Shown piece by piece: positions 7,207 to 48,500 of a stretch of 64,000 bases of DNA. Source of the stretch: Balneolales bacterium (GTDB lineage: Bacteria > Bacteroidota > Rhodothermia > Balneolales > Natronogracilivirgulaceae); contig SLNO01000024.1 in assembly GCA_007132975.1 (NCBI GenBank), positions 1 to 64,000 of the forward strand, in the 5' to 3' direction. Made by a program: the position numbers and the translations under genes. Within the stretch, counting starts at the first letter, position 1. Every line of letters begins with the position of its first letter. The notes beneath the pieces were generated by a model. The model was not told where the DNA came from. It ran no database searches and was given only the letters and a program-made list of their open reading frames with translations.

Positions 7207-7289
7207 ATTGAAACGGCATCTGCCCGGAACCACATCAGGCTACCGGACGATGCCCGACCAGGCAACAGAAATCCAATGATTTATAACAC

Positions 7290-8807
7290 ATGAAAACGCT
7301 CGGAAAACGCATTGAAGAAAAACCCTGGATCGGCTGGGTGGTATTCCTCATCACTGTAGTGGTGGTATTTCTGGCCGGACTGTTCACCTACACCATTGTG
7401 GAGCGGCGGACCGAAGCGCAGTTTGTCTTCCAGCCGGTGAAGGACCTGCATCCCCTTGAACCAAGGCTGGAGGTCTGGGGCGAGGCGTTTCCGCGCCAGT
7501 TCAACACCTACAACCAGATGGCCGATACCACATTCCGCAGTGAGTTCCTGGGATCCACTCGCCTGGATCTGCTGGAAAAGAACCCGCGGCTTGTGATACT
7601 TTTTGCCGGCTTTGCATTCGCGACGGACTACAACCTTGCCCGCGGACACTACTATTCGGTCACCGACGTCCACGAAACCCTGCGCACCGGAGCGCCCATG
7701 AAAGCGGGGGAAGGTCCTATGCCGGCCACATGCTGGAGCTGCAAAAGCTCGGATGTCCCACGGCTGATGGCCGAGATGGGTGACGACGAATTCTATGCCG
7801 CCCGATGGTCGGAAGTGGGTCATGAAGTGGTAAATCCTATTGGATGTGTCAACTGTCATGATCCCCAGACCATGAACCTGCGTATCTCGCAGCCCGCACT
7901 TGTGGAGGCGTTCGAGCGTCAGGGACGTGACGTAACCAAAGCGACCCACCAGGAGATGCGTTCGCTCACATGCGCCCAGTGCCATGTGGAATATTACTTC
8001 GGCAGCGGCAACAAGCTGATATTCCCTTGGGACCGCGGACTGAAGGCTGAGGAGGTTGAGGAGTACAAGGACAACATCGAGTTCGCCGACTGGGTGCATC
8101 CGCTCAGCCGCACACGCATGCTCAAGGCACAGCATCCCGACTATGAAATTTTCAAGCTTGGGATCCATGCCCAGCGCGGTGTTTCATGCGCAGATTGCCA
8201 CATGCCCTACCGGACCGAAGGTGGAGTGAAGTACACGGACCACCGGGTGCAGAATCCGCTGAATAACGTGGCCAATGCCTGCCAAACCTGCCACCGTCAG
8301 AGCGAGGCGGAACTGGTGCGCAATGTGGTTTCCCGTCAGCGTGACGTGTACGATGTACGCGAGAAGCTGGAAATTGCCCTTGTCAACGCACATCTGGAGG
8401 CCGAGTTCGTCTGGAATCTTGGGGCGACCGAAGATCAGATGGCCCCGGTATTGCAGCACATTCGGACCGGGCAGTGGCTATGGGATTACGGTGCGGCCAG
8501 CCACGGAGGTGCCTTCCACGCACCCCAGGAGATGATGCGGATGTTCGGAAATGGGGTCAACCACGCCCAGGAAGCGCGCCTTGAACTGGCCCGTATCGCC
8601 GCAAGATTGGGGCATTCGGATCCCATACCCATACCTGACGTTTCCACCAAGGCAAAAGCCCAGGCCTATCTGGGAATCGACCTGGAGCAGCGTCAGCGTG
8701 AGAAAAACGAATTCCTGCGGATCGTGGTCCCGGAATGGCTGCAACGCGCCGATGAGCGCCATCGACAGTGGGACTCCGGCGAACGGGATATCGTCCCTTC
8801 ACGGTGA
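7290..8807 (+). CDS. nrfA: Pentaheme cytochrome c nitrite reductase NrfA (ammonia-forming)
   Basis: NrfA reduces nitrite to ammonium with six electrons in the periplasm. In its 505 residues the catalytic heme motif CWSCK lies at 148-152, followed by four CxxCH motifs at about 186 (CVNCH), 228 (CAQCH), 300 (CADCH) and 331 (CQTCH). The lysine-ligated CxxCK is diagnostic. An N-terminal hydrophobic segment (about 15-38) may act as an uncleaved anchor or signal. The gene sits in an nrfHA-ccsB-ccsA operon, so the maturation genes next door probably serve the CxxCK heme too. Confidence 0.97.
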   Translation: MKTLGKRIEEKPWIGWVVFLITVVVVFLAGLFTYTIVERRTEAQFVFQPVKDLHPLEPRLEVWGEAFPRQFNTYNQMADTTFRSEFLGSTRLDLLEKNPRLVILFAGFAFATDYNLARGHYYSVTDVHETLRTGAPMKAGEGPMPATCWSCKSSDVPRLMAEMGDDEFYAARWSEVGHEVVNPIGCVNCHDPQTMNLRISQPALVEAFERQGRDVTKATHQEMRSLTCAQCHVEYYFGSGNKLIFPWDRGLKAEEVEEYKDNIEFADWVHPLSRTRMLKAQHPDYEIFKLGIHAQRGVSCADCHMPYRTEGGVKYTDHRVQNPLNNVANACQTCHRQSEAELVRNVVSRQRDVYDVREKLEIALVNAHLEAEFVWNLGATEDQMAPVLQHIRTGQWLWDYGAASHGGAFHAPQEMMRMFGNGVNHAQEARLELARIAARLGHSDPIPIPDVSTKAKAQAYLGIDLEQRQREKNEFLRIVVPEWLQRADERHRQWDSGERDIVPSR

Positions 8808-34617: not shown

Positions 34618-36567
34618 CTATTTCACCAATGTCATGGTGCGCGTCAGCACCTTGCGCGCAGGATTACGGCCCGTTAGGCCCTGATTGTGCCCCACTCTAC
34701 TATCATTGTCCATGCCGACACCGGCTGCGAAGTAACCGCCCACTTGCAGCCTGCTGATGTAGACACCGCTGGACAGTCCGGATGCATCAAAATCAACAGT
34801 ATGCCGTCCGGCCTGCCGCCGTTCGTTGACCAGCAGGGCTACGCGCCGCCCAAGCATATCGAATATTTCAAGGCGCACATCAGCGGCCTCAGTCAAGCTG
34901 AACGAGATTCGGGTTGTGGGATTGAAAGGGTTGGGATGGTTTTGCGACAACCTGATTTCCAGCGCGGTATCCTCATGCGGCCCTGGATCTGATACATAGG
35001 TATCCGTATCCTGCATGGACATGTGCGGGTATCCGTTATTAACGGAGTGGTCGGTATCGTGAATCCATGTATGTTCGAAATTCCAGTTTGCAAAAACACC
35101 CTCTGCGTAGGGATAGGTCATTTCGTCGGTTGTGCGTCCGTATCCTCCATCACTCTCATCCTGTTCCGTTTTCTCGATATCGTAGTAGGAGTCAATGACG
35201 TTTTCGGATGAATCGCCGTCATTCAGGCCCACGAGGCCCCCTGCCTGATCGGCGTCAAAGACTTTTCCGACGGCATAGGAATTGGTGATTTTTCCACTGC
35301 GCCGATTTGCTTCGGTATTGTGGCCAACCAGCCCTCCGACCATGTTATCGCCTTTGACACTGCCTGTCGCATATGAATTTTCAATGATTGCATATGATGA
35401 GTTCACACCTGCAAGGCCACCAACCCGGACATCTCCATCCACCGATCCCGTTGCAAAAGCCCTGATGATACTTCCTCGGTTTGATCCCACCAGTCCACCG
35501 ATCTGGCCCAGCCCCCCGGAGCCTGTCACGTTGCCCGATGCGAATGTCTGATGCCGCCAGTATGAAGTTGGATAATAGATGATTTCGCCATTATCGGTAT
35601 CCCCTACAAGTCCGCCTATAAAGGACTCTCCATCAACATCACCGGTCGCATAGGAGTCGGCAATTTTGCTGTTATGAAGATAACCGACCAGTCCCCCCAC
35701 TCTCCATACACCCGTGACATTGCCGGTGGCGTAACAATTTACCAAATCATATCCCCTGCCGGGATTGTATGATCCTGCAAGACCTCCGACTCTGTTGCCT
35801 GTGCCGGTGACGTCCCCAGTAGCATGGGAAGTGCTAATGGAGCTCCTCAGATTAACCAAGCCCGCCAGGCCTCCGGCGTACGTGAGACCCTCCCCGGTGC
35901 CTGTGACATTGCCGTCAGCATGGGACCTGTCGATGCGTGCATCAGCGGTAACACGGCCAGCCAGTCCGCCAACAGCGTATTCACCGGTTACATCTGCAGA
36001 CGCATGCGAATCGGTTATGATGGCGCCCTGCTGTCTGATCTCTCCGACAAGTGCACCGACAGAAGTGTGCCCATTGAGGACGCCTGAAGCATAAACCCCT
36101 GATATGGTTCCTTCTACATTACGGCCAGCCAGTCCACCAACATTATTTTGGCCAGTGATATCGATATCGGCCAAGGTCACATTTTTGATGAGGGCTCCTT
36201 CCGTATCGGCGAAAAGACCTTGATGATCTTCATCGGGGCGATATATATAGAGTCCGCTGATGGTATGACCGTCACCGTCGAGGGTTCCGGTAAACGGAGC
36301 ATTATCGGGGTCATTCCAGTCGATATAAATCCCGATGGCCTCCCAGCCATTTTCTTCATTCCATGGTGCAATACCCAGGTCGATATCGTCCACCAGAATG
36401 AAGTGTGCACTCAAGTGATCCCGGACATTGTGCAATTGTTCGGCAGTCTGGATTTGCCAGGGACTGTCAGGTGTACCGTCACCGCCGGCAAACTGTGAGT
36501 GAGCGGTTCCGGAAAAGGCGAGGAGAAATAATGCAATGAGCGGAAAAGCGCTGTAATAACGGTTCAT
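34618..36567 (-). CDS. Secreted GLUG-repeat surface protein with type IX-like sorting domain
   Basis: 649 residues. After a signal (LFLLAFSGTAHS) comes a fold that begins GGDGTPDSPWQIQTAEQLHN and holds about ten repeats with VGGLAG or VGGLVG, spaced about 30-40 residues, each with a Y/HATGxVTG partner: the GLUG motif of surface adhesins. The C-terminal sorting domain starts LSQNHPNPFNPTTRISFSL. Its last hairpin carries an extra 28 or so residues (AAGVGMDNDSRVGHNQG...) before TRTMTLVK, which is unusual. Element A of the dispersed repeat forms its leader. Confidence 0.88.
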   Translation of the reverse strand: MNRYYSAFPLIALFLLAFSGTAHSQFAGGDGTPDSPWQIQTAEQLHNVRDHLSAHFILVDDIDLGIAPWNEENGWEAIGIYIDWNDPDNAPFTGTLDGDGHTISGLYIYRPDEDHQGLFADTEGALIKNVTLADIDITGQNNVGGLAGRNVEGTISGVYASGVLNGHTSVGALVGEIRQQGAIITDSHASADVTGEYAVGGLAGRVTADARIDRSHADGNVTGTGEGLTYAGGLAGLVNLRSSISTSHATGDVTGTGNRVGGLAGSYNPGRGYDLVNCYATGNVTGVWRVGGLVGYLHNSKIADSYATGDVDGESFIGGLVGDTDNGEIIYYPTSYWRHQTFASGNVTGSGGLGQIGGLVGSNRGSIIRAFATGSVDGDVRVGGLAGVNSSYAIIENSYATGSVKGDNMVGGLVGHNTEANRRSGKITNSYAVGKVFDADQAGGLVGLNDGDSSENVIDSYYDIEKTEQDESDGGYGRTTDEMTYPYAEGVFANWNFEHTWIHDTDHSVNNGYPHMSMQDTDTYVSDPGPHEDTALEIRLSQNHPNPFNPTTRISFSLTEAADVRLEIFDMLGRRVALLVNERRQAGRHTVDFDASGLSSGVYISRLQVGGYFAAGVGMDNDSRVGHNQGLTGRNPARKVLTRTMTLVK

Positions 36568-36667
36568 CAGATTATGATTTTGGATTTATGAGGTCGTCAC
36601 TTCAACTGTCCAAGGCGTTAATAATCATGCACCTGTGCGACAGGACTGTGGTCAGGAACATTTCAGT
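36568..36667 (-). repeat. Dispersed leader element, copy A
   Basis: This is a diverged copy oriented toward the GLUG-protein gene and ending at its start codon. It keeps GAAATGTTCCTGACC, CACAGGTGCATGATT and CATAAATCCAAAATC-like blocks. The arms (ATGTTCCTGAC and GCCTTGGACAG) pair at 7 of 11 positions. The inner hairpin is ACAG/CTGT. The mini-ORF starts ATG at 36628 but stops after eight codons at 36602. It is the most degenerate of the copies. Confidence 0.55.
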
Positions 36668-37029
36668 TGAAGTCAAAAAAACAATGAACAGGAGACCAAA
36701 TACTATGCGGATTCTATTCGCTCGGTCCTGAATGCGATGGTCCGGCTGCATCTCTGTGGTGTTGCTGCGACATGGATCCGGAATGAATACTGTACTTGTC
36801 GCTGAGAAACCCTCTTTCTCTGGACATAAATAATGGATATGGCAAACAAGCAACTCTTACACTTCGATGTAAAATGCTGAATTGAATTGAAAAAACAAAA
36901 AAAATCGGCGCTGGATCACAGCATGTGCTCGTTTTTACTGAGTGAAATTATGATTGGTCAGGGTTTGTTACTGCTACAGCGGCACGTAGTTTATTATGAA
37001 CTAAAATTGTGTGATATCTGGGAATTATT
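36668..37029. other. Intergenic DNA between divergent genes
   Basis: This is mostly AT-rich DNA without a convincing gene. A segment at 36668-36694 (TGAAGTCAAAAAAACAATG then AACAGGAG) is nearly repeated at 40600-40629 upstream of the DmpA-type gene. A poly-A stretch is near 36890. Confidence 0.35.
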
Positions 37030-37126
37030 GGAGAATCTACATGATAGCTTGGAACATGCCCAATTGAATGGGTTGTTGTCATGGACGTTCTATGTGACCT
37101 TGGAAATCTAATTTTTTAAACAGTTA
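37030..37126 (+). repeat. Dispersed leader element, copy B
   Basis: This copy lies just upstream of an MscS gene. The 3' half is well kept: GTCATGGACGTTCTATGTGACC, GAAATCTAATT and TTTTAAACAG. The 5' half has diverged, but the arm ATCTACATGAT (37035-37045) still pairs with GTCATGGACGT (37078-37088) at 9 of 11 positions including wobbles, and the inner hairpin CCCA/TGGG is present. AGGAG is absent. The frame MDVLCDLGNLIF (37081-37119) ends at the conserved TAA. Twenty bases lie between that stop and the MscS start. Confidence 0.6.
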
Positions 37127-37138
37127 AAATATCAGCCA

Positions 37139-38140
37139 ATGGAAGAGCAACCAATCGATCAGCCAGTCGACATAGAGATAAACAATGATCAAGTTTTTGA
37201 AGAGCAACCCATTGAAGAACTCATAGCCGAGTTTGCCGTGACCGGGAAGGAGTGGGTGATCAATGATCTGCCGGGAGTGATCGTGGTCATTGCCATTTTC
37301 ATTATCCTGTTCAAAGTGGTCAGCATCGTTTTCCGCAAAATCCGAAAAAACCTGATCAACCGTGCGGAAAAAAAAGAGGAAGTGGACTCGAACGAAGCGG
37401 CAAAACGCATCAACACCCTGACAAGCATTTCCCATGGTTTTGTAAGGGTGCTTCTCTGGATACTGTTCTTTATGATGCTGCTGCAGAACGTGGGGATCAA
37501 TATCGGACCCATCCTGGCCAGTGTGGGTATCATCAGTCTTGCCGTCGGATTCGGAGCGCAGGAGCTGGTCAGGGATTACATCTCGGGCTTCTTCATGCTC
37601 CTGGAAGACCAGATACGCGCCGGCGATGTCGCCATTCTTAACGGAACCGGCGGTTTTGTGGAGAAAATTGAACTACGGACCACTACTCTGCGCGATTTTT
37701 CCGGTATCGTGCACGTCTTCCAGAACGGAAAGATCAACTCGCTGTCGAACATGACCAAGGAGTGGTCGGCCATGGTGTTCGACATCGGCGTGGCGTACAA
37801 GGAGGATGTGGATGAGGTCATGGATATCATGAAGCAGGTCGGCGACGAACTCTGCGAGGATCCCGATTTCAAGGACCTGATCCTGCCGCCGGTAGAGATC
37901 TTCGGCCTGGATGATTTCGCCGACAGCGCCCTGGTCATCAAGGCGCGCATCCGCACAAAGCCTATCCAGCAGTGGACCGTGGGACGCGAATACCGAAAGC
38001 GGCTGAAAAAAGCCTTCGACCAGAAAAATGTTGAAATCCCGTTCCCGCACAGGACCATCTACTGGGGCGAGGAGATCAATTCACTTAAAGTTGATGCGAA
38101 TAACCACATCAAAGGCGAGATTAGGAGCAAAAACGAGTAA
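37139..38140 (+). CDS. Small-conductance mechanosensitive channel (MscS family)
   Basis: 333 residues. An acidic N-terminal stretch precedes three helices (about 43-65, 95-118, 122-150). The pore helix and following beta domain show ILASVGIISLAVGFGAQELVRDYISGFFMLLEDQ, here recognised in parts: SVGIISLAVGFGAQ then LVRDYISGFF. A hydrophilic cytoplasmic domain follows to about 320. It releases osmolytes on hypo-osmotic shock. The gene lies behind element B; another MscS-family gene is at 53021-54106. Confidence 0.93.
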   Translation: MEEQPIDQPVDIEINNDQVFEEQPIEELIAEFAVTGKEWVINDLPGVIVVIAIFIILFKVVSIVFRKIRKNLINRAEKKEEVDSNEAAKRINTLTSISHGFVRVLLWILFFMMLLQNVGINIGPILASVGIISLAVGFGAQELVRDYISGFFMLLEDQIRAGDVAILNGTGGFVEKIELRTTTLRDFSGIVHVFQNGKINSLSNMTKEWSAMVFDIGVAYKEDVDEVMDIMKQVGDELCEDPDFKDLILPPVEIFGLDDFADSALVIKARIRTKPIQQWTVGREYRKRLKKAFDQKNVEIPFPHRTIYWGEEINSLKVDANNHIKGEIRSKNE

Positions 38141-38196
38141 CCGGGCACTCCGGAAACGGAGTGATTAACGCTCCGGCCTGAGTACTTTGCAAAACC

Positions 38197-38298
38197 ACAT
38201 GAAATGTCCATGACCGGACATCTACCGGTCACACAGGAGTATGATTAAAAACGTCATGGACATTCTATCTGACCATATAAATCCAACATTTTAAACAG
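38197..38298 (+). repeat. Dispersed leader element, copy C (best conserved)
   Basis: The copy starts ACATGAAATGTCCATGACC. Arm ATGTCCATGAC (38204-38214) is perfectly complementary to GTCATGGACAT (38253-38263). The inner hairpin is GACCGG (38212-38217) with CCGGTC (38225-38230) around ACATCTA; its first bases overlap the outer arm, so the two stems compete slightly. AGGAG (38235-38239) precedes the ATG of a 17-codon ORF (38241-38294). The TAA lies in TTTTAAACAG, followed by ATG at 38299, which here begins only a five-codon frame and then a terminator. Confidence 0.75.
38241..38294 (+). CDS. 17-codon mini-ORF inside element C
   Basis: The frame reads MIKNVMDILSDHINPTF and is preceded by AGGAG one base before its ATG (closer than the usual spacing). 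The same length and stop position recur in element E (MFKNVMVILCVLMNQAF). The two differ by nine base substitutions and no indels, all changing the amino acid, so the peptide itself is not under visible selection. It may act as a leader whose translation opens the long stem, or be a by-product of the element. Confidence 0.3.
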   Translation: MIKNVMDILSDHINPTF

Positions 38299-38301
38299 AT
38301 G

Positions 38302-38339
38302 AAAGAGCCGTTCTGATTTGTTTCAGGATGGCTCTTTTT
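38302..38339 (+). terminator. Intrinsic terminator right after element C
   Basis: AAAGAGCC (38302-38309) pairs with GGCTCTTT (38330-38337) across a 20-base loop, and the T-run continues to 38339. It sits inside and after the five-codon frame that starts at the end of element C. It may end the MscS transcript or a short RNA made of element C alone. Confidence 0.65.
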
Positions 38340-38558
38340 GCATTATTAGGCTTGTAACCATCGGCACCGTTGGCATCACCTCCATTGGCATTACCACTAG
38401 TATTGCACGAGCTGTTTTTCCAGCATAGTTTTCCAGCAGAGATTGTATTATATCATTATCTCATTCCATCCCTAAACCAACCTGGAGTTGAAATGCGCCA
38501 TTTTGCAATTCCTTTGACGTCATTGATGAACACTTCAGGGAAATCTCGAAAATTGAAT
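38340..38558. other. Leader before the sialate esterase gene
   Basis: This 219-bp stretch continues the esterase frame to the left without stop, but lacks signal-peptide character. I take it as untranslated leader. Starts at 38493 or 38526 cannot be excluded. Confidence 0.35.
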
Positions 38559-40535
38559 ATGGAAAGATCAAAGTTGCCCCGAATCACACCCAGTGTCTTG
38601 ATCCCGATTCTTATACTGCTGGCGCTGCCTGTTCTGGCGCAACCCGGGCTTCCCAGGATCCTGAGCGACGGGATGGTCCTGCAGCGTGATCAGGAAGTCA
38701 GGATTTGGGGATGGGACGATCCCGGTTCCAGAGTGGAAGTGTCCTTCCGTCATGAAACGTTCACAGGCAAAGCGGATGACAGCGGGCGATGGACTGTCGC
38801 CATAATTTCCGGGGAAGCCGGCGGGCCTTTTGAAATGGAGATGAGGTCCGGGGATCAGCCCGAACCGGTGACCATCCGGGATATTCTGGTTGGCGAGGTT
38901 TGGGTCGCTTCTGGTCAGTCAAACATGGAACTTCGCCTGGACTTGGTGCATCCAAACAGAGAAGACCGGTATGCCATCGCAAACTACCCCGGTATCCGCC
39001 ATTTTGAAGTGCCAAACCGGTATGACTTCCAGAATCCCCGGGAGGATTTGTCCGGCGGACAGTGGGTCGCCTCCTGCAGCAGCAGTATCCACCGGTTCTC
39101 CGCTGCCGCCCACTATTTTGCGATCCATATCCACGAGCATCTGGGTGTTCCGGTTGGGATAATCAACACGAGTATGGGCGGCTCTCCCGCAGAGTCGTGG
39201 ATGAGCGAGGAAGCGCTGAAGGCATTTCCCGTCCACTACGAGGAAGCGCAGCTGTTCAAGGATGACGCGCTTATCAGACAGATTGAGCAGGAAGATCGTG
39301 AGCGTATAAACGCCTGGCACGAAAAGGTCACGGCAGAGGATGCGGGATACCGGGCTTCCGACGCACCCTGGCATGCCCGCGAAATTGACGTGACCGGCTG
39401 GGACACCATGACGGTCCCGGGCTATTGGGCAGACGACATCGGGAGGGAGGTGAATGGTGTCTTCTGGTTCCGCAAGGAGGTCGAGGTTCCCGGGTCCATG
39501 ACCGGACAGCCGGCGCGCCTTGATCTGGGCCGTATCGTGGATGCTGATTCCATCTTTATTAATGGCGTTTTTGTCGGGAATACCACTTATCAGTATCCGC
39601 CCAGATGGTATGATGTCCCTGATGGTATATTAGAGGATGGGGTCAATACCTTTGCCATTCGTGTGGTGAATGAACGGGGACGCGGGGGTTTTGTCCTCGA
39701 CAAGCCGTTTGAACTTTCCACCCCCAATGATACCATCGACCTTAGAGGCACATGGCATTATCGTATGGGGGCAGAGATGCCGCCGCTTGAGGGACCAACC
39801 TTTATTCGCTGGAAGCCGCTTGGCCTTTTTAATGCCATGATCGCGCCAATTGTTGATTATCGGATCAGGGGGGCGATCTGGTATCAGGGGGAATCCAACA
39901 CGGGTCGCCCGGACGAATATTCGGAGCTGTTTCCAGCTATGATAGCGGACTGGAGAAATCACTGGCACCAGGGCGAGTTTCCATTTCTTTATGTCCAGCT
40001 TGCAAACTACATGGAGTCATCCGACCGCCCGCAAGACAGCAACTGGGCGCGTTTGCGGGAGTCTCAGCTGAAGACGCTATCGGTTCCCGGTACCGGAATG
40101 GCTGTGGCTATAGATATCGGCGAGTGGAATGACATCCACCCGCTTAACAAATGGGATGTTGGCGACCGGCTGGCACTGGCTGCCCGGCATGTTGCCTATG
40201 GTGAAGACCTTGTCTGGTCAGGTCCATTGTATGAGGAAATGGCTGTGAGTGGGGATACGGTTCGGATATCGTTCACGCACACCGGAAGCGGATTGAAAGC
40301 TGATGGCAATGACGCGGGCAAAGTGCGTCACGTTACCATTGCAGGTGAGGAGCGTAAATTTGTCTGGGCGGAAGCCTGGGTTGAGGGTGATCACATGCTG
40401 GTGCGCAGCGATGAAGTACCGGATCCGGTGGCAGTGCGCTATGCCTGGTCCGATAATCCGGACTCGGCCAACCTGTACAACAGGGAGGGTTTGCCGGCAT
40501 CACCGTTCCGGACGGATGACTGGGACCTGGAGTAA
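38559..40535 (+). CDS. Secreted sialate O-acetylesterase-like enzyme (SGNH hydrolase)
   Basis: 658 residues from the ATG at 38559, which begins a proper signal (LIPILILLALPVLA). An N-terminal beta domain (about 25-105) precedes the SGNH blocks VWVASGQSNMELRL (catalytic Ser), IWYQGESNTGRPDEY and NDIHPLNKWDVGDRLALAA (catalytic Asp/His). Between them a glycoside-hydrolase family 2-type sugar-binding domain is inserted (about 275-410; GVFWFRKEVEVP, IFINGVFVGN). Such enzymes deacetylate sialic acid or related sugars on polysaccharides. Element C and a terminator lie 220 bp upstream. Confidence 0.88.
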   Translation: MERSKLPRITPSVLIPILILLALPVLAQPGLPRILSDGMVLQRDQEVRIWGWDDPGSRVEVSFRHETFTGKADDSGRWTVAIISGEAGGPFEMEMRSGDQPEPVTIRDILVGEVWVASGQSNMELRLDLVHPNREDRYAIANYPGIRHFEVPNRYDFQNPREDLSGGQWVASCSSSIHRFSAAAHYFAIHIHEHLGVPVGIINTSMGGSPAESWMSEEALKAFPVHYEEAQLFKDDALIRQIEQEDRERINAWHEKVTAEDAGYRASDAPWHAREIDVTGWDTMTVPGYWADDIGREVNGVFWFRKEVEVPGSMTGQPARLDLGRIVDADSIFINGVFVGNTTYQYPPRWYDVPDGILEDGVNTFAIRVVNERGRGGFVLDKPFELSTPNDTIDLRGTWHYRMGAEMPPLEGPTFIRWKPLGLFNAMIAPIVDYRIRGAIWYQGESNTGRPDEYSELFPAMIADWRNHWHQGEFPFLYVQLANYMESSDRPQDSNWARLRESQLKTLSVPGTGMAVAIDIGEWNDIHPLNKWDVGDRLALAARHVAYGEDLVWSGPLYEEMAVSGDTVRISFTHTGSGLKADGNDAGKVRHVTIAGEERKFVWAEAWVEGDHMLVRSDEVPDPVAVRYAWSDNPDSANLYNREGLPASPFRTDDWDLE

Positions 40536-40633
40536 GCAATGCCGTCGCGTCATAAAGAGCGTTATGCTTCTAAGCGAGAAATGTTCTTTTTCAAAATTCT
40601 GAAGTCAAAAAAATCAATGTGAACAGGAGTTTC

Positions 40634-41878
40634 ATGATGAATCCAGATGCTTTGTTTATTGTGTTCTTGACGGGTTTGTTCTTGCTGGCGGGTGTTTGCG
40701 TCGCAACGTCCAAAAACACACCTGAAAGAAAAAGGGCCGATCAGCTTAGAGTCCATGTGGGCGTATTGCCCTCCGGGCCGCTGAATATGATCACTGACGT
40801 GTCCGGCGTCAGGGTGGGACACGTCACCCGCATCGAGGGCGACCACATACGCACTGGCGTCACCGCCATCCTCCCGCACGGCGGCAACATTTTCCGGGAA
40901 AAAGTGCCTGGCGCCATCTACAATTTCAACAGCTTCGGCAAAATGGCCGGTTCACTACAGGTGGATGAGCTGGGTAACATCGAAACGCCGATCGTCCTGA
41001 CCAACACTTTGAGCGTTGGCACCGCTGTTGAGGCAACGGCGGCCTGGGTCCTGGCGCAGGACGGCAACGAGGATGTGCGATCGGTGAACGCGCTGGTAGG
41101 CGAGACCAACGACGGATACCTGAACGACATCCGCGGGCAGCACATCACAGCGGAGGATGTGTTCCGCGCCATTGAATCGGCGAAAGCTGCCGAAGTGGCC
41201 GAGGGCAGTGTGGGCGCGGGCACCGGCACGCGCAGCTTTGGCTACAAATCGGGTATCGGTACCGCATCGCGTGTCACAGTGCCTATTGGCGGACAGCAAT
41301 ACACTGTGGGTGTGCTGGTGCAGTCCAATTTCGGCCGCGACCTGTACATCAACAGTGTGCCGTTCTCGCGCGAAATAGAGCGATTGGAACGAAAGGAGCA
41401 GCAGAAAAAGCAAGAACAAATGCAACAAGGCCAGATGGGAGGTAATCTGCAGCAGGGTCACATGGAAGAAGACGACGGCTCGGCCATGATCATTATCGCC
41501 ACCGACGCGCCGCTGTCGGACCGCAACCTGCGTCGCATGGCCAAGCGCTCGTTCATGGGCATGGGGCGTACGGTGGGGTACATGTCCAACTTCTCCGGGG
41601 ACTTCGCCATCGCCTTTTCCACCGCCTATACCATCCCGACGGGGGGAATGCGCCTGGTGGATCCCGCGCCGGCCCTGATCGGCAACAACGAGATGAACCC
41701 GCTGTTCCAGGCCGTGGAGGAAGCCACGCAGGAAGCGTTCTACAATGCTCTGTTCATGTCCGAGGGTATGACCGGACGTGACGGCAACCGGATGGATGCC
41801 ATACCGCTGGACAAGGTCATCGAAATCCTCGATCACTACAACATGAGGCACCTGAACGACCGGCTTCCACGCGAATAA
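40634..41878 (+). CDS. DmpA/P1-type N-terminal nucleophile aminopeptidase
   Basis: About 414 residues. The ATG at 40634 follows AGGAG by four bases; the GTG at 40619 would bury that site in coding sequence. A signal-like helix (residues about 3-23) starts the protein. ITDVSGVRVGHVT, TGVTAILPHG, LVGETNDG and GTRSFGYKSGIGTASR are typical of the DmpA family, and self-cleavage is expected at Gly-Ser in DDGSAMIIIATDAPL. A Gln/Met/Lys-rich insertion of about 30 residues precedes the cleavage site. It hydrolyses D- or L-amino-acid amides or beta-peptides, and is probably exported. Confidence 0.88.
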   Translation: MMNPDALFIVFLTGLFLLAGVCVATSKNTPERKRADQLRVHVGVLPSGPLNMITDVSGVRVGHVTRIEGDHIRTGVTAILPHGGNIFREKVPGAIYNFNSFGKMAGSLQVDELGNIETPIVLTNTLSVGTAVEATAAWVLAQDGNEDVRSVNALVGETNDGYLNDIRGQHITAEDVFRAIESAKAAEVAEGSVGAGTGTRSFGYKSGIGTASRVTVPIGGQQYTVGVLVQSNFGRDLYINSVPFSREIERLERKEQQKKQEQMQQGQMGGNLQQGHMEEDDGSAMIIIATDAPLSDRNLRRMAKRSFMGMGRTVGYMSNFSGDFAIAFSTAYTIPTGGMRLVDPAPALIGNNEMNPLFQAVEEATQEAFYNALFMSEGMTGRDGNRMDAIPLDKVIEILDHYNMRHLNDRLPRE

Positions 41879-42008
41879 CCGGAGACCGGCGGTTGTTTGG
41901 AAAAGGTGCGGTGAGTGTGGACTCAGGTCATGGTTAAGGAATAAACTGCAACAATTTGAACCGTAAACTCACAAAACAGAATCGATTATCTGAAAACAGC
42001 AAAAATAC

Positions 42009-42812
42009 ATGGCTCAGAATCCACACAAAAATATCATCGGGATTGTCGGGGGGATGGGACCCGTGGCCGGGGTGGACCTGGCATCCAAAATCATTTCACA
42101 GACCATCGCAATCAGGGATCAGGACCACCTGCCTTTTGTTTTGCACTCATTCCCCAGCGAAATCGGGGATCGAACGGAATACATTTTGAGAAGTAAGGCT
42201 GGTGGTGAAAGTTCGTCGCCGGACGATCACTCCAATCCCGGTTTGGCCATTGCCCGGGTCCTGATGAAACTGGAAGAGGCCGGGGCTACCGTCGCGGGCA
42301 TGGCTTGCAACTCCGCCCATGCCCCCGTCATTTTTAACCGGATTGTATCGGAGCTGCAGGCAAACAATTGCAAAATCCAACTGCTCCACATGGTTCGGGA
42401 AGTAGGCTGGCATATAATTTACAATCTTTCCGGGGTGCGGAAAGTGGGAATTGTCGGCACGACCGGCACGCGGGCATCCGGTCTCTATGGCATGCTCGGC
42501 GAGCTTGGCCTGGAGGTGCTGGATGTGACCGACGATGAGCAGAGTGTGCTGCAATCGGCGATCTACGATCCGGAATGGGGCATCAAAGCCACGCCCGACG
42601 GGGCATCGCCGGAATCGGTCAGAATACTTGCCGAAACCTGCCAATCCCTCCGCCAAAGAGGTGCTGAAGCCGTCGTTTTTGGATGCACGGAATTCCCGCT
42701 GGCCTGGCGCGAACCGGAAATAGAGGGTTTGCCGCTGATCGATTCCAGTCTGGTGCTGGCCAGGGCGCTGGTCCGAGCCGGCGATCCCGAACGGCTCAGG
42801 CCGTGGGGGTAG
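42009..42812 (+). CDS. Aspartate/glutamate racemase family protein
   Basis: 267 residues, two alpha/beta domains. IIGIVGGMGPVAGVDLASKI starts the N-domain. The catalytic Cys pair lies in MACNSAHAP (about 97-105) and FGCTEFPL (about 228-235), as in PLP-independent Asp/Glu racemases. KVGIVGTTGT is the second conserved loop. It may supply D-aspartate or D-glutamate. It follows the aminopeptidase gene, which suggests D-amino-acid handling, and is convergent to the GH42 gene with only 6 bp between the stops. Confidence 0.9.
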   Translation: MAQNPHKNIIGIVGGMGPVAGVDLASKIISQTIAIRDQDHLPFVLHSFPSEIGDRTEYILRSKAGGESSSPDDHSNPGLAIARVLMKLEEAGATVAGMACNSAHAPVIFNRIVSELQANNCKIQLLHMVREVGWHIIYNLSGVRKVGIVGTTGTRASGLYGMLGELGLEVLDVTDDEQSVLQSAIYDPEWGIKATPDGASPESVRILAETCQSLRQRGAEAVVFGCTEFPLAWREPEIEGLPLIDSSLVLARALVRAGDPERLRPWG

Positions 42813-42818
42813 CCTTCG

Positions 42819-45155
42819 TTACTCCGCATTGATCCGCCACACCCGGACATCCCGTCCTGGTACCCGGGTATCGAAACCGATACGCCCGTCATCGGCAGAT
42901 ACACGCTTCCGTTCATCGTGGATGATATCCTGGAGCCGGAAACGCCCGGCCCCATCCACCATCACAGAAACCGACAGTTCGGCCTCTTCGTGGCCATGGT
43001 TGATCAGGAAAAGCAGGTATCCCCTGCCATCGGTCTGCAGCCGTGCCACGATGGGTGTGTCAGAGACACCGTCCCGCGAGGTGGATACCGGTCGTGTAAC
43101 CCCTGCCCAGTCGGCCAGCGCTTCCATGAATGCGTTGTTTGCGGGCAGGGTCTGCGGAAAGTTGGCCATGCCGAGGAAGGAGCCGGCCAGCAGCGCCTCC
43201 CCCTCTCCGTAGCGGTTGACGACCACGGCCGGGTCGCCGGTCATATCAAGCTGCGCGATGACCTCGGCCTGATCGCTTATCAGCTCCACGGTTTTGCCGT
43301 AAAGGGTACCGACCAGCGTGTCGGCGGGAGTCGGGCGCCTGGCATCCTGCAACCCTGCTGGATCCACAAAGCGGCTCCAGAATGGATGCTCATTTTGCGT
43401 GAGCACCAGCGGGATGTCGTGTTCGCGCATCCACACTTCGTGTTCGCGGACGCCAAAAACCTCGTGCAGGCCCATGCCGGGTATCTCCATGGAAGCATAT
43501 CCGCGATCGTCGTTCCAGCCGATGCGCGCCTCACCGACGGCATGGCCGCCATCGGCGACGAATTTTCTGAGTCCGTCGGCCGCGTGCTGTGTGAGCATGA
43601 GCGACCACGGGAGGATGATGAGCTTGTACTGCGAAAGGTCGCCTGATTCCAGGTCTCTGCGGTGGATGAAATCAACGGGGATGTTGTTTTCGGCGAAGAC
43701 GCGGTAGTAGCCGATCAGCGAGTTATGGTGCGCCATGGGGTGGTCAGCGCGCCGTTGCGCCCCGCCAACCATCTGCGAAAGCGGGTTGTAGACTATGGCC
43801 ACTTCGGCCGGAACGGGCTGCGAATTGAGGAACAGTTCTTGGTTGCGGTCCACCACGGACGCCAGCTCTCCGGCCCGCACTGCCCGCTCGGTGAGCGATC
43901 CGTCCTGATTCACCAGGCCGTATCCACCCGACTCGTAACCCGACGACATAGGGTAGTAAGCGTAGATGTTGATGGCCTTGGCGCCCTTGGCGATGGCGGA
44001 CCAGATCCAAACGCGGTGGTCGCCGGGTGTCACGGGATCGCTGACGATAAGGGCTATGGTGCCTTTGCCGGCCTGCAGCTCACCGACGTACCAGCCCTTG
44101 TTGCCGCGGTTGGCGCTGCGGGCGAAGTCCATCATGTTCATTACGCGCCAGGCGGGCCAATGGCGGTCTGGATGGTTGTGCTTCGGGTAAAGCGAGACGC
44201 CGTAGTAGTCGACCATGTCGGCCATCAGGAAGTCGTCGGTGGCGCCCACACCCATATGCGGGGAGATGATGATGGAGGATACCGCCGCATGGGACGTGAT
44301 CACGTTATGGTGATCTGCAAGGCGCACTGCGTCATAACGCATGCGCAAATCGTCGGCCAGTTTTTCGTAGATGAAGGTCTTCCAATCGAGGTAGTCGGTG
44401 TAGCTCAGGATGGTGCTGAAGCGGGGCGGACTCACATCCTCCCACTCCTCGAAGCCGCGATGCCAGGCAGTGTTGAGCGCGTCAAGTGAACCGTATTTTT
44501 CCCGCAACCAGTCGCGAAAACGAGCCTGTGTGGACTGACAGTAGCAGAACTGGGCATTGGCTACGTAGTCGATATTGGCCCAGTTGATGATGTGCGGTTC
44601 GCTCCAAAGGTCCCATCCATAGAAATTTTTGTACTCATTTGCGACGCGGGCGGTTTCGGTATAGAAGTTGAGAACCGCGTCACGTACTGCGTCATGATCG
44701 GTGCAGAATCCGGGGGCGGACTGAGACGCAACGAGGGTGCCGTCCTGTGCCTTGAATTTGGCATCCGGATTCTGCCTGCCGACCCAGTCGGGGGCCGAAT
44801 CCACATAGAACTGAATGAATACCTTGAGCCCGGCCTCATCGGCAAGCTCCATCAGCAGGCGCAGGTTGTCAAAGTTGTACTCGCCCTGCCGCGGCTCCAC
44901 GCGCTGCCACTCGACCCAAGTGCGGACCGTGTTGAAGCCAAGTTCCCGGATCTGGCGCAGGTCGCGAAGCCACTCTTCGCGAGAGTCGGGCGTGATTTCG
45001 GAGAGCATGGGAGCCCGCGCATCTCCGCCGCTGTACCATACGGAGAAGGGGAAGTAGTCGGTCGGATAGGGCGTGTCGGGCTGTTGCTGCGAAAAAGACT
45101 GGTTGTGGGCAAACAGGATCAGAAAAAAGAGCGAACATATCAGGTGTGATTTCAT
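42819..45155 (-). CDS. Secreted GH42-like beta-galactosidase
   Basis: 778 residues from the ATG at 45155, followed by a signal (LICSLFFLILFAHNQSFS). The frame is open for 29 more codons upstream, without signal character. The TIM barrel (about 35-400) shows ELGFNTVRTWVEWQRVEP, acid/base Glu in YGWDLWSEPHI and nucleophile Glu in WYVGELQAGKG, as in GH42. A flavodoxin-like trimerisation-type domain follows (about 480-690: YKLIILPWSLMLT, NRYGEGEALLAGSF) and then a small beta domain. It hydrolyses beta-galactosides or similar glycans outside the cytoplasm. Confidence 0.88.
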   Translation of the reverse strand: MKSHLICSLFFLILFAHNQSFSQQQPDTPYPTDYFPFSVWYSGGDARAPMLSEITPDSREEWLRDLRQIRELGFNTVRTWVEWQRVEPRQGEYNFDNLRLLMELADEAGLKVFIQFYVDSAPDWVGRQNPDAKFKAQDGTLVASQSAPGFCTDHDAVRDAVLNFYTETARVANEYKNFYGWDLWSEPHIINWANIDYVANAQFCYCQSTQARFRDWLREKYGSLDALNTAWHRGFEEWEDVSPPRFSTILSYTDYLDWKTFIYEKLADDLRMRYDAVRLADHHNVITSHAAVSSIIISPHMGVGATDDFLMADMVDYYGVSLYPKHNHPDRHWPAWRVMNMMDFARSANRGNKGWYVGELQAGKGTIALIVSDPVTPGDHRVWIWSAIAKGAKAINIYAYYPMSSGYESGGYGLVNQDGSLTERAVRAGELASVVDRNQELFLNSQPVPAEVAIVYNPLSQMVGGAQRRADHPMAHHNSLIGYYRVFAENNIPVDFIHRRDLESGDLSQYKLIILPWSLMLTQHAADGLRKFVADGGHAVGEARIGWNDDRGYASMEIPGMGLHEVFGVREHEVWMREHDIPLVLTQNEHPFWSRFVDPAGLQDARRPTPADTLVGTLYGKTVELISDQAEVIAQLDMTGDPAVVVNRYGEGEALLAGSFLGMANFPQTLPANNAFMEALADWAGVTRPVSTSRDGVSDTPIVARLQTDGRGYLLFLINHGHEEAELSVSVMVDGAGRFRLQDIIHDERKRVSADDGRIGFDTRVPGRDVRVWRINAE

Positions 45156-45332
45156 AATAATGTCCCAGCAAGTAGTGTGGAGGGTAGGAATTCCGTGGCC
45201 CTGGAGCAAAAGGTGGCTTTCCAACACCTTGTTGCATTGCAATGATTTGAGCGAATGCGGTCAGACCCGCTTTCCGGTCAAGATATAATAATTGGATGCT
45301 TTTTCAATGCAGACCTTGCGGAATTTGGCCGT

Positions 45333-46751
45333 TCAGCCGGCCAGCTTTCGGATCATCCCGTTGAAGATGAAAAAGTGGAAAGGCAGTACCAGATACCAGT
45401 ACAGGCGACCCCAGACCCCGCGTGGACGGAATGTGGCTTCCTGTATCAGCCTGTCCTCCTCAATACGGAATTCCAGCCAGGCCTCGCCCGGCAGCCGCAT
45501 CTCGGCAAACAGCAGCAGCCGTCCTTCGTCTTTGTCGGCCAGCAGCACCCGCCAGAAGTCGAGGGTGTCGCCGGTGCTGATATCGTCCAGGGATGTGCGC
45601 CCGCGCCTCAGCCCGACCCCGCCGAAAAGCTTGTCAAGGAAGCCCCTTATGCCCCATAGCCAGTCGGCGTAATACCAGCCAGTCTGCCCGCCGATGGACC
45701 ATATCCGGCCCAGCACACCGTCCCGGTCGCGTATTGGCCGCTCCTTCCGGTCCTTGAAACAGCCAAATTTGGGTACCTGGATGTGCTGGCCAAGCCCGGT
45801 CCGCAGCCTGCCGCTGATGAGGGAGTCCTTCCAGCTGGAAAGGATCGCGTTCTGCTCGATCTTTTCAAAAGCCCGTGATACGGCCTCTGCGTAGGGAATA
45901 GGTTTGATCCGGAGCATCTCTGGCAGGTCATTGTCGCGGCAGGTCACATCCACCTTCATGCTGTCGACCAGCTTCACCGCCAGCGAGTAGGTTGTGGAAG
46001 TGACAAAATAGAGCCAGTACGAAGATAGCTTGGGAGTGAGCACCGGAACGGTGACAATGGCGCGCCGCAGTCCGCGTACCCTGGCGTACTCCATCAGCAT
46101 CTGCTTGTAGGTGAGCACATCCGGCCCGCCAATATCGAAATTCCGGTCCCAGGTACGCTCATCGCCCAGGCATCGCTCCAGATACGTTATGACATCCCTC
46201 ACGGCTATGGGCTGCGAGCGGGTTTTCAGCCACTTCGGGGCGATCATCACCGGCAGCTTCTCCACAAGATCGCGGATGATCTCGAACGATGCGCTTCCCG
46301 AGCCGATGATGATGCCGGCCCGCAGTGTTGTGAGCGCATAGCTTCCAGAATCCAGGATGTCCTCAACCTGTTTGCGCGATGCCAGATGCTTCGACAGGTT
46401 CTGGTCGTTGATGATGCCGCTCAGGTAGATCACGTGCCGTACATTGGTCCGGTCCATGCAATTCCGGAAATTTTCGGCCGACTGACGCTCCAACTCCTCA
46501 AAATCACCGGACCGGGAGGACATGGAATGCACAAGATAATACGCCCCGTCAATATCGTCAGGGATGCTTTCAAGAGAATCGGAGTCAAGGAAATCCGCCT
46601 CCACCACCGTAACCCTGGACGCCAGATCCCTTCCCAGGTTAAGGCGCCCGCGGTCCCGCACGCAGCAGACCACATCGTGGCCTTTTTCGACCAGTACGGG
46701 CAGCAGCCGCTTGCCAATGTAGCCGGTTACGCCGGTGAGCAGTATTTTCAT
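45333..46751 (-). CDS. NAD(P)-binding SDR-type protein with C-terminal DUF2867
   Basis: 472 residues. The N-terminal Rossmann domain begins ILLTGVTGYIGKRLLPVLVE (GxxGYIG dinucleotide site); YYLVHSMSSR and VRHVIYLSGI are typical of the YbjT-like atypical SDR branch. From about residue 320 a DUF2867 domain follows (RTSLDDISTGDTLDFWRVLLAD, WGRLYWYLVLPFHFFIFNGM). The substrate is unknown; some relatives act on quinones or isoprenoid-like molecules. Elements D and E lie in tandem directly upstream and D ends at the start codon. Confidence 0.88.
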   Translation of the reverse strand: MKILLTGVTGYIGKRLLPVLVEKGHDVVCCVRDRGRLNLGRDLASRVTVVEADFLDSDSLESIPDDIDGAYYLVHSMSSRSGDFEELERQSAENFRNCMDRTNVRHVIYLSGIINDQNLSKHLASRKQVEDILDSGSYALTTLRAGIIIGSGSASFEIIRDLVEKLPVMIAPKWLKTRSQPIAVRDVITYLERCLGDERTWDRNFDIGGPDVLTYKQMLMEYARVRGLRRAIVTVPVLTPKLSSYWLYFVTSTTYSLAVKLVDSMKVDVTCRDNDLPEMLRIKPIPYAEAVSRAFEKIEQNAILSSWKDSLISGRLRTGLGQHIQVPKFGCFKDRKERPIRDRDGVLGRIWSIGGQTGWYYADWLWGIRGFLDKLFGGVGLRRGRTSLDDISTGDTLDFWRVLLADKDEGRLLLFAEMRLPGEAWLEFRIEEDRLIQEATFRPRGVWGRLYWYLVLPFHFFIFNGMIRKLAG

Positions 46752-46855
46752 CTGTTTAAATCAATTAATATTCATAAGGACAGTATGAATTCACATGACA
46801 GGATTTAATTATTCTCCTGTGTGCCAGCTGGTGGCTGTCGTGTTCATTTCATGTG
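46752..46855 (-). repeat. Dispersed leader element, copy D
   Basis: D is head-to-tail with E and ends TGATTTAAACAG at the start codon of the SDR gene. It keeps ACATGAAATG, CACACAGGAG, ATTAAA and GTCATG. The arms ATGAACACGAC and GTCATGTGAAT pair at 8 of 11 positions; one position (A-U here, C-G in copy C) is compensatory. The inner hairpin is GCCA/TGGC, different in sequence from copy C. The mini-ORF start is ATA instead of ATG and the frame carries a one-base shift, so it is probably not translated. Confidence 0.65.
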
Positions 46856-46955
46856 TTTAAAATGCTTGATTCATGAGGACACATAGAATGACCATGACGT
46901 TTTTAAACATGCTCCTGTATGTCCGGGAGATACCGATCATGTTCATTTCATTTTT
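46856..46955 (-). repeat. Dispersed leader element, copy E
   Basis: E is directly upstream of D. Arms ATGAACATGAT and GTCATGGTCAT pair at 10 of 11 positions, with a U-A to A-U exchange relative to copy C (compensatory). The inner hairpin is CGG/CCG. ACAGGAG precedes the mini-ORF, and the TTTTAAAC that ends E runs straight into the ACATGAAATG that begins D, giving a period near 103 bp. Confidence 0.65.
46857..46910 (-). CDS. 17-codon mini-ORF inside element E
   Basis: The frame MFKNVMVILCVLMNQAF is the same length as that in element C. AGGAG lies one base before its ATG, closer than usual, and its TAA is inside TTTTAAAC. No database family is known to me. See the entry for element C for the argument against selection on the peptide. 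Confidence 0.3.
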   Translation of the reverse strand: MFKNVMVILCVLMNQAF

Positions 46956-46974
46956 TTCTGGTGGATGTGGCGGG

Positions 46975-47619
46975 TCAGCCGGAAATAACTGCAGAACCAA
47001 TGTCCCCCGGCTGTGTGAAAATCCCGAACGGTGTGTATCGCTCAAAAGTTTCTTTGCTGTTGAGGCCCCAGCAAGCCGCACCGAAAGCGACTCCAACGGC
47101 CTCTGCAGCTTCGAGGTCGCGCAGCTCGTCACCGACATACATTACATCCCGGTGATCTGCGTCTGCCTTGTCCAGAAGCCTCTGCAATTTTCCTTTCTTG
47201 CCAAAAAATGACGCGCCGCACTGATAATGGCTGAACAGCGGCTCCAGCTCCGGCCCCAGCACCGCTCGAATGTTCTTTTCCGCATTGGAGCTGAGGACAG
47301 CCAGGCGGATACCCCTGTTTGCCATATCGAGCAGGACGCCTGCAATGCCCGGGAACAGCTCCAGCCTTGCGGTGTCGCGGCGCATCTTCCGGCGCAGCTC
47401 CCACATGATGAGAGGCATTTTCCAGGTGGATATTTCCAGATAAGAGAGCAATTCCTTCGGAGGGAGTGCCCGGATGTGATCGTACTCTTCGGGTTCCACA
47501 TTCCTGGTCCTGTACCGGGCTGAAATGCCGGGCATCTGATTTGCTGCCCAGCCCAGAGTGTCGGCCAGCGTGCCGTCAAAATCGAATACCACGACCCTGA
47601 ATCTCACAATATCCTTCAT
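46975..47619 (-). CDS. HAD-superfamily phosphatase, phosphoglycolate phosphatase-like
   Basis: 214 residues. Motif I is VVVFDFDGTLADT (nucleophile Asp, about 11-15). An alpha-helical cap with KMPLIMWELRRKM follows. Motif II is LAVLSSN (Ser/Thr), motif III Lys is in FFGKKGKL, and motif IV is VMYVGDELRDLEAA. The substrate is not evident; small sugar phosphates or phosphoglycolate are typical. It is encoded upstream of the tandem elements E and D on the same strand. Confidence 0.9.
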   Translation of the reverse strand: MKDIVRFRVVVFDFDGTLADTLGWAANQMPGISARYRTRNVEPEEYDHIRALPPKELLSYLEISTWKMPLIMWELRRKMRRDTARLELFPGIAGVLLDMANRGIRLAVLSSNAEKNIRAVLGPELEPLFSHYQCGASFFGKKGKLQRLLDKADADHRDVMYVGDELRDLEAAEAVGVAFGAACWGLNSKETFERYTPFGIFTQPGDIGSAVISG

Positions 47620-47767
47620 TTATGTTGGCTGGAACCGGTATAGTGGCAATTACAACTTCTTGGTACATTATAGTAAGGATTTGCTAACTTCCGGTAGATA
47701 ATTATCGATCAGTGCCTTTATGGGGCGCACAGCCACATCCACCAGATTGTTAGGTAAACGCTGCAAC

Positions 47768-47870
47768 CATGAAATGTCCATGACCGGGCATCTCGCTGAC
47801 ACACAGTCGTTTGACTGAAATCGTCATGAATATTCTACGTGTTTCTATGAATCTAAATTGATTTAAACAG
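47768..47870 (+). repeat. Dispersed leader element, copy F
   Basis: F reads CCATGAAATGTCCATGACCG at its start, nearly identical to C, and ends TGATTTAAACAG at the start codon of the outer-membrane protein gene. Arms ATGTCCATGAC (47774-47784) and GTCATGAATAT (47823-47833) pair at 10 of 11 positions, with a G-U wobble. AGGAG is replaced by CAGTCG. The mini-ORF would start at TTG 47811 and end at TGA 47859-47861 (16 codons, with EIVMNIL). Confidence 0.7.
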
Positions 47871-48500
47871 ATGCAATTATTGAAAATTACGGCATTGGTC
47901 ATCGCTGCGCTCATGATCCTGCTGCTTCCTCGCCAGGCGGATGCCCAGCTTCTGGATTACGGTTTTAAGGCCGGGGTGAACATCTCGTCCGTGACCAACT
48001 CGGTCTACCGAACCGGCTCCATGACGGGGTCCCATTTCGGCATGTTCGCCGCCTACAACTTCCGCATTCTGCCGATTTCCATCCAGACAGAGATGCTTTA
48101 CTCCCAGCTGGGTACCGAATATGACGAGATTGTCATTGGCTTTCAGGCACCGCGTCCGGCCTCCCTCCGCATGAACTACATCCAGTTGCCACTGCTCGTT
48201 AAGGCGCACCTGCCCATCCCGGGACCAGTCACACCCAATATTTTTGGTGGACCGTACGTCGGCTTCCGGTCGGGGATATCGTTCAATTTCGGCGGCATGG
48301 ATGTGCCGCAGGCTGAGGAGTGGTATCGTGACGGCGATTTCGGATTTGTGGTTGGGGTTGGGACCCGGGTGGGCTTTTTTGTAGTCGATCTTGATCTGGA
48401 AGTGCGTTTGCTGTTTGGCATGGAAAACATATTCGATCGGCAGTTTGAATATGATGAGCAGCACCGCGCCATATCATTCTCCGCCGGTATCGTCTTCTGA
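47871..48500 (+). CDS. Outer-membrane beta-barrel protein (PorT-like family)
   Basis: 209 residues. A signal (ALMILLLPRQADA) is followed by strands typical of the PorT/outer-membrane beta-barrel family of Bacteroidetes: YGFKAGVNISSVTNS, HFGMFAAYNFRILPISIQTEMLYSQLG, LRMNYIQLPLLVKAHLP and PYVGFRSG. It ends with a strand of the AISFSAGIVF type and terminal Phe. Function unknown; many relatives are in envelope or sorting loci. Element F forms its leader. Confidence 0.8.
   Translation: MQLLKITALVIAALMILLLPRQADAQLLDYGFKAGVNISSVTNSVYRTGSMTGSHFGMFAAYNFRILPISIQTEMLYSQLGTEYDEIVIGFQAPRPASLRMNYIQLPLLVKAHLPIPGPVTPNIFGGPYVGFRSGISFNFGGMDVPQAEEWYRDGDFGFVVGVGTRVGFFVVDLDLEVRLLFGMENIFDRQFEYDEQHRAISFSAGIVF

Follow-up and report, generated by a model that had tools for sequence, protein, structure and literature searches.

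A short structured repeat of Balneolales that probably represents a family of non-autonomous mobile elements inserted at ATGAA, mainly at gene start codons

The first 64,000 nucleotides of contig SLNO01000024.1 from a Balneolales bacterium (assembly GCA_007132975.1), here termed the window, contain six copies (A–F) of a repeat of about 100 bp, which is the subject of this report. The copies lie near genes for a GLUG-repeat protein, MscS, an SDR/DUF2867 protein and an outer-membrane barrel. An earlier note, made from the letters of the window, had reported the places and strands of all six, and reading and aligning the window located each of them within a few bases of those positions (Table 1); their similarity is far beyond chance. 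The note's observation that D and F end exactly at a start codon was confirmed, and A abuts an ATG in the same way. The note placed every copy in a gene leader in the sense direction; C follows mscS, is at no gene start and has ATGAAA as its insertion site. A weak match at 7266–7294 (+) covers the right end only (...ATGATTTATAACACATGAAAACG) and may be what is left of a copy that lay at a start codon.

Table 1. Copies of the repeat in the window and the parts of copy C
Feature	Position	Strand	Remarks
Copy A	36563..36665	-	Right end adjoins the GLUG-repeat protein gene (34618-36567) at its start codon, 36567-36565
Copy B, decayed	37030..37127	+	Right-end ATGAA lost; the mscS start codon (37139) lies ~12 bp beyond the end
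Copy C, near consensus	38199..38303	+	ATGAA at both ends; before a terminator-like hairpin after mscS; not a gene start
Stem S1 left arm ATGTCCATGAC, copy C	38204..38214	+	
Stem S1 right arm GTCATGGACAT, copy C	38253..38263	+	
Guide TTCTATCTG, copy C	38263..38271	+	Complementary to CAGATGAA with one bulge
Right-end site CAGATGAA, copy C	38296..38303	+	
Copy D	46747..46852	-	The SDR/DUF2867 gene (45333-46751) starts at the right-end ATG, 46751-46749
Copy E	46848..46951	-	Tandem, upstream of D; ATGAA 46852-46848 common to D and E
Copy F	47769..47873	+	The outer-membrane barrel gene (47871-48500) starts at the right-end ATG (47871)

Insertion was assessed by comparing relatives at the starts of six genes, metK, mdh, pheT, purQ, atpC and plsX, picked since at least one genome has the element there. 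The metK start is filled in the genome of the window only and empty in ten relatives, and the other five are filled in differing subsets of relatives. Pairwise alignments gave one-unit inserts of 100 bp at metK, 97 bp at mdh (versus G009) and 95 bp at pheT (G002 versus G008), and inserts of 192 and 215 bp, corresponding to two units, at atpC. The flanks of empty and filled pairs are identical at 28–39 of 40 positions and no target sequence is lost at the clean insertions; purQ, plsX and some other alignments are too diverged for exact placement of the insert. An empty site has a single ATGAA, and the filled site reads ATGAA-(ATGTCCATGAC ... TTTTAAACA(G/C))-ATGAA-gene, such that ATGAA is retained by the old upstream flank and again forms the start of the gene. 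The comparisons thus show precise insertion at ATGAA with the start codon re-created. At atpC and mnhE, which we take to be operon genes, the downstream gene is likewise left with a start. Two to four units are present in 70 of 167 non-redundant arrays, and adjoining units share one ATGAA unless a linker lies between them; such head-to-tail units with one ATGAA per junction are what repeated insertion would give. Preferential entry of new units beside the gene was not shown by the arrays (39 versus 26, p=0.14).

Copies are numerous in the genome of the window (G000; 3.24 Mb in 153 contigs). A BLAST search with copy C gave 62 matches there at E<1e-3, itself included, and the best matches are 94–99% identical. 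Profile searching of the regions fetched at that stage gave 75 copies, some of them weak, and 12 further matches were found in a 400-kb sample of the own genome taken from beyond the window; the genome probably holds about 100 copies in total, with the scaling from the 400 kb sample being crude. The earlier note had recommended building a covariance model and scanning related genomes with it. A model built from 68 copies and run on relatives found many copies, concentrated in the bacterium's own family (f1), most genomes of which have dozens. Of the 20 genomes of f1 searched, 16 gave at least 11 copies, G014 had two among the matches listed, and G015, G016 and G018 had none. In the rest of the order, one to seven copies were among the matches listed in each of eight genomes, and no match was found in any further genome of the class (245 searched). 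Transfer or binning error may explain a small number of outliers, such as those in G092. The named records that carry the element are Balneolales metagenome-assembled genomes (MAGs), mostly CSSed bins, a series from soda-lake sediment, and one DLM2 bin. Phage, plasmid and viral collections gave no match. At one locus outside the main family (L063, taken to be from G051), two neighbouring divergent genes each have element units at their own start codon. Own-genome contigs C20, C91, C73 and C110 start inside or beside copies, so that short-read assemblies from this family are probably interrupted by the repeat.

The unit is 95–100 bp long and the consensus of 226 distinct copies is ATGAA-ATGTCCATGAC-(loop with a variable part and conserved CACACAGGAGYATGATTAAAA)-GTCATGGACAT-TCTATSTGACCTTATRAATC...TTTTAAACAS-ATGAA, where S is C or G. 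The right-end CASATGAA is at least 97% invariant at each base except S. The arms ATGTCCATGAC and GTCATGGACAT pair as an 11-bp stem, S1. Among 68 own-genome copies, 55 cells of the proposed pairs are changed on both sides, compared with 21±3 in shuffles, and five S1 pairs show such changes, with the counts being inflated by relatedness among the copies. Clearly distinct arm types also occur (ATGTCC/GGACAT, ATATTC/GAATAT and GAACATGGCAG/CTGCCATGTGAGTTC), and these data show that S1 is maintained by compensatory changes. RNAalifold returned no pairs with default settings and the stem together with a 3′ hairpin with RIBOSUM scoring. In the core stem G-U is somewhat more frequent than A-C, by a difference too weak to tell which strand folds. 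In most copies, the left ATGAA would open a four-codon leader peptide (MKCP-stop or similar; for example, window 38199–38213) that ends in the stem, if the original start context is still used.

Next to the stem lies a short guide, TTC[n]ATSTG. One of its bases is bulged, and the other eight are complementary to CASATGAA at the right end of the same element; in other guide types the bulge is shifted (TTCAT[n]STG and TT[n]CATSTG). The guide matches the site of its own copy at 8/8 bases in 157 of 215 copies, versus 99 when it is compared with the site of a random other copy and one after shuffling of the guide region. At the S position taken alone, the combination is G-C in 90 and C-G in 89 copies versus G-G in 26 and C-C in 14. 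When the first unit of each array is taken, the counts are G-C 42, C-G 29, G-G 17 and C-C 2 (p about 1e-9). Folding models predict two alternative partners for the guide, the left ATGAA (mean paired fraction 0.43) and the right ATGAA (0.28), and such pairing could also influence translation.

A 17-nt module, CYGAARGTCRCGAAGYG, follows ATGAA or TGAA in front of many units (loci L022, L017, L054, L101 and others). The module may fold into a pair of mini-hairpins with GAA loops, in which changes are matched (CCGAAGG/CTGAAAG and CGCGAAGCG/CACGAAGTG). Two modules stand in tandem at L022, and at L117 one lies apart from the element. At L057:1618-1646 (genome G013) the guide region of one copy contains the module on the other strand, at a point where ATGAA is read from the bottom strand.

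Start codons are the predominant location of the element. In its own genome 31 of 42 judgeable arrays end at the ATG of an open frame, and across all fetched genomes 107 of 142 non-redundant arrays are exactly at a start codon, a count derived from 104 start and 38 other arrays, three of the latter (L020, L039 and L052) being misplaced sites that were re-read as starts. ATGAA is followed by A in 96 of 104 start insertions, compared with 32 of 72 element-free ATGAA starts, which places the target nearer ATGAAA. The sense orientation of the copies is not independent evidence and needs no regulatory explanation, since the use of ATGAA as a start codon fixes the direction. Pfam scans of 20 downstream proteins gave, for those with a match, AsmA/DUF748, right-handed beta-helix, GLUG, SDR/DUF2867, OMP barrel, HAD, DUF5117, TonB plug, YgbB (ispF), carbonic anhydrase, citrate/sodium symporter, OsmC, ABC permease, polysaccharide synthesis, FMN reductase, GH3 and zinc dehydrogenase. 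The target genes include metK, mdh, pheT, purQ, atpC, plsX, ispF and carbonic anhydrase, and neither these scans nor the ortholog comparison revealed a common pathway. The envelope-related regulon suggested in the earlier note is not the right reading: the targets are diverse and occupancy varies among species.

Candidate mobilising enzymes were sought by Pfam family in the element's own genome and in element-rich and element-poor relatives. On the bottom strand the layout fits the IS200/IS605 family: the ends are asymmetric, a short fixed sequence flanks the unit, and the hairpin has at its 5′ foot a guide that pairs with the end where cutting would occur. A Y1 HUH transposase of the IS200/IS605 or RAYT family, moving a MITE-like or REP-like element, would explain this layout. 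We consider this very unlikely, given that PF01797 was absent from the hits in the own genome and in 11 of the 14 element-rich genomes searched, that G015, G021, G024 and G028 have several PF01797 matches each but no detected element, and that the ends of the IS200 copies in G001 and G013 are alike to each other and unlike those of the element. Y1 HUH was accordingly rejected as the mover on grounds of its distribution and of these unrelated ends. Reverse transcriptase (PF00078) was not found in G000, G009 or G012, and a group II intron, retron or other retroelement was set aside for lack of PF00078 in the own genome. The IS110 transposase (PF02371) was found in only G013 of five element-rich genomes and not in the own genome, and an IS110 (bridge RNA) element was rejected on that ground. 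Serine recombinase (Resolvase, PF00239) gave no match in 11 genomes, with controls matched, and was likewise rejected as not found in the own genome; Y2 transposase (PF04986) gave none in either these searches or the control genomes. The own genome has just two tyrosine recombinases, which read by eye as XerD and XerC. An integron cassette was therefore rejected for want of an integron integrase, and action of XerCD on a dif-like site is unlikely, since the targets share only ATGAA. Among the fetched loci there was no autonomous copy with a gene between the ends, and no recombinase gene recurring beside copies was evident. The incompleteness of MAGs (the own genome is 88% complete) weakens single absences, but less so the joint pattern over several genomes. 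That several known mobilising enzymes were not found in the own genome points to an unrecognised recombinase.

The element is real, widespread, mobile and structured, with an unusual target, and in our judgement it probably constitutes a family of ~95–100 bp non-autonomous mobile elements, site-specific at ATGAA(A) and located mainly at gene start codons. This agrees with the alternative offered in the earlier note, that of a mobile repeat settled upstream of genes. As a result that would refute its reading, the same note had named random placement, lack of covariation and target-site duplications. This applies only in part: the ATGAA is indeed duplicated, but placement is non-random and the pairs covary. 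With covarying structure present, structure and mobility are not alternatives here. Several observations weigh against the proposal. Neither a mobilising enzyme nor an autonomous copy was found in the searches described above, occupancy differences were seen between species and none within one species, and about a quarter of the arrays lie away from start codons. The guide covaries with its own right end but not with the base before ATGAA in the target (one-sided p=0.98), so the pairing lies within the element and guided target choice beyond ATGAA is unsupported. Moreover, the expected share of start codons among non-coding ATGAA, 18–30% (13 of 44 in the window and 51 of 278 in 464 kb) versus about 75% observed, relies on a crude gene caller, although even a null of 40% leaves 75% unexplained. 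Insertion might instead be blind to start codons, with any ATGAA being hit and the rest removed by purifying selection or hidden by decay. This is a possibility of some weight, if a doubtful one: the sequence upstream of the target shows no evident motif beyond ATGAAA, some 25% of arrays occupy an ATGAA that is not a start, and the 17-nt module is found also at an antisense ATGAA. Yet non-coding non-start ATGAA outnumber start-codon ones by 2.4 to 4.5:1 and most should tolerate insertion, while starts take 75%.

A cis-acting regulatory RNA leader of a regulon, similar to a riboswitch or thermosensor, would account for other features. The guide would hide or free the start codon, and copies would have spread by recombination and been kept by regulatory selection. 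Copies at starts are always placed to be transcribed, the stem and anti-start guide are conserved, and the folding models, which share the guide between the left and right ATGAA, predict the start AUG to be paired with a mean probability of 0.71. The targets, however, have no common function, occupancy of the same gene varies among close relatives, and insertion is indicated by the tandem arrays, by the duplicated ATGAA and by copies away from starts, for example C. Nor did any Rfam model match at gathering score; the earlier note knew no named family of this kind. We regard a regulatory leader as improbable. For a mobile element, by analogy with IS200/IS605 ends, a folded single strand (DNA or RNA) with its right end paired to the guide would be what the recombining enzyme recognises, and that enzyme would act in trans. 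The high share of start codons may reflect both targeting and the harmlessness of such sites, with the AT-rich right end possibly serving as the translation-initiation leader of the target gene. A more far-reaching reading, which we think unlikely and which would amount to a wholly new category of DNA movement, is that the 100-nt element is transcribed within host mRNAs, finds AUGAA at translation starts by its internal anti-start guide and spreads via an RNA or single-strand intermediate, using an enzyme that belongs to none of the known families of transposases, integrases and reverse transcriptases. A repeat living at start codons rebuilds the codon it interrupts, even in metK, pheT and atpC, which shows a route by which copy number can rise to roughly 100 without visible gene breakage, the leaders of many genes being altered differently in each species. 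A system that inserts specifically at start codons would also have practical use as a tool.

As a small non-autonomous mobile repeat the element is of a known kind, and parts of it are found in several systems. REP elements (described in PMC3733652) and REPIN elements (described in PMC3116915) go with RAYT (Y1) transposases. The element resembles them in being non-autonomous and extragenic and in having many short dispersed hairpin units with a tag beside the hairpin, but it is three to five times longer, lies at start codons with a repeated ATGAA and has no Y1 gene found in most carriers. Non-autonomous derivatives of IS200/IS605 (PATE type) have a hairpin, guide pairing with an end, a fixed flanking sequence and asymmetric ends. 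The element shares all four features: its hairpin adjoins the cut site and its guide pairs with an end, and it inserts 3′ of a short fixed target, ATGAA being on the left of the insert in empty and filled sites. It differs in having one main hairpin rather than one per end and ATGAA on both sides, and in that its own genome has no Y1 match. MITEs of DDE transposons are likewise short and non-autonomous with a short direct repeat at their flanks. In contrast to these, the element has no terminal inverted repeats, as its left end ATGTCCATGAC and right end TTTTAAACAS are not complementary, and the sequence of its direct repeat never varies; since each side always has the same ATGAA, a true target-site duplication and an end carrying ATGAA look alike. 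Integron attC sites and cassettes share with the element a folded single-strand site, same-orientation tandem arrays and a gene start directly after, whereas the element also occurs as solitary units before ordinary chromosomal genes and no integron integrase was found in its own genome. HEARO or omega RNAs of IscB elements are likewise structured mobile units next to ATGA-like sequences. The element is about half their size, without an HNH gene or an Rfam match. The literature searched contained no described equivalent, and as far as these searches show, its targeting of start codons, the re-creation of the codon, the self-complementary guide and the lack of a found enzyme are new.

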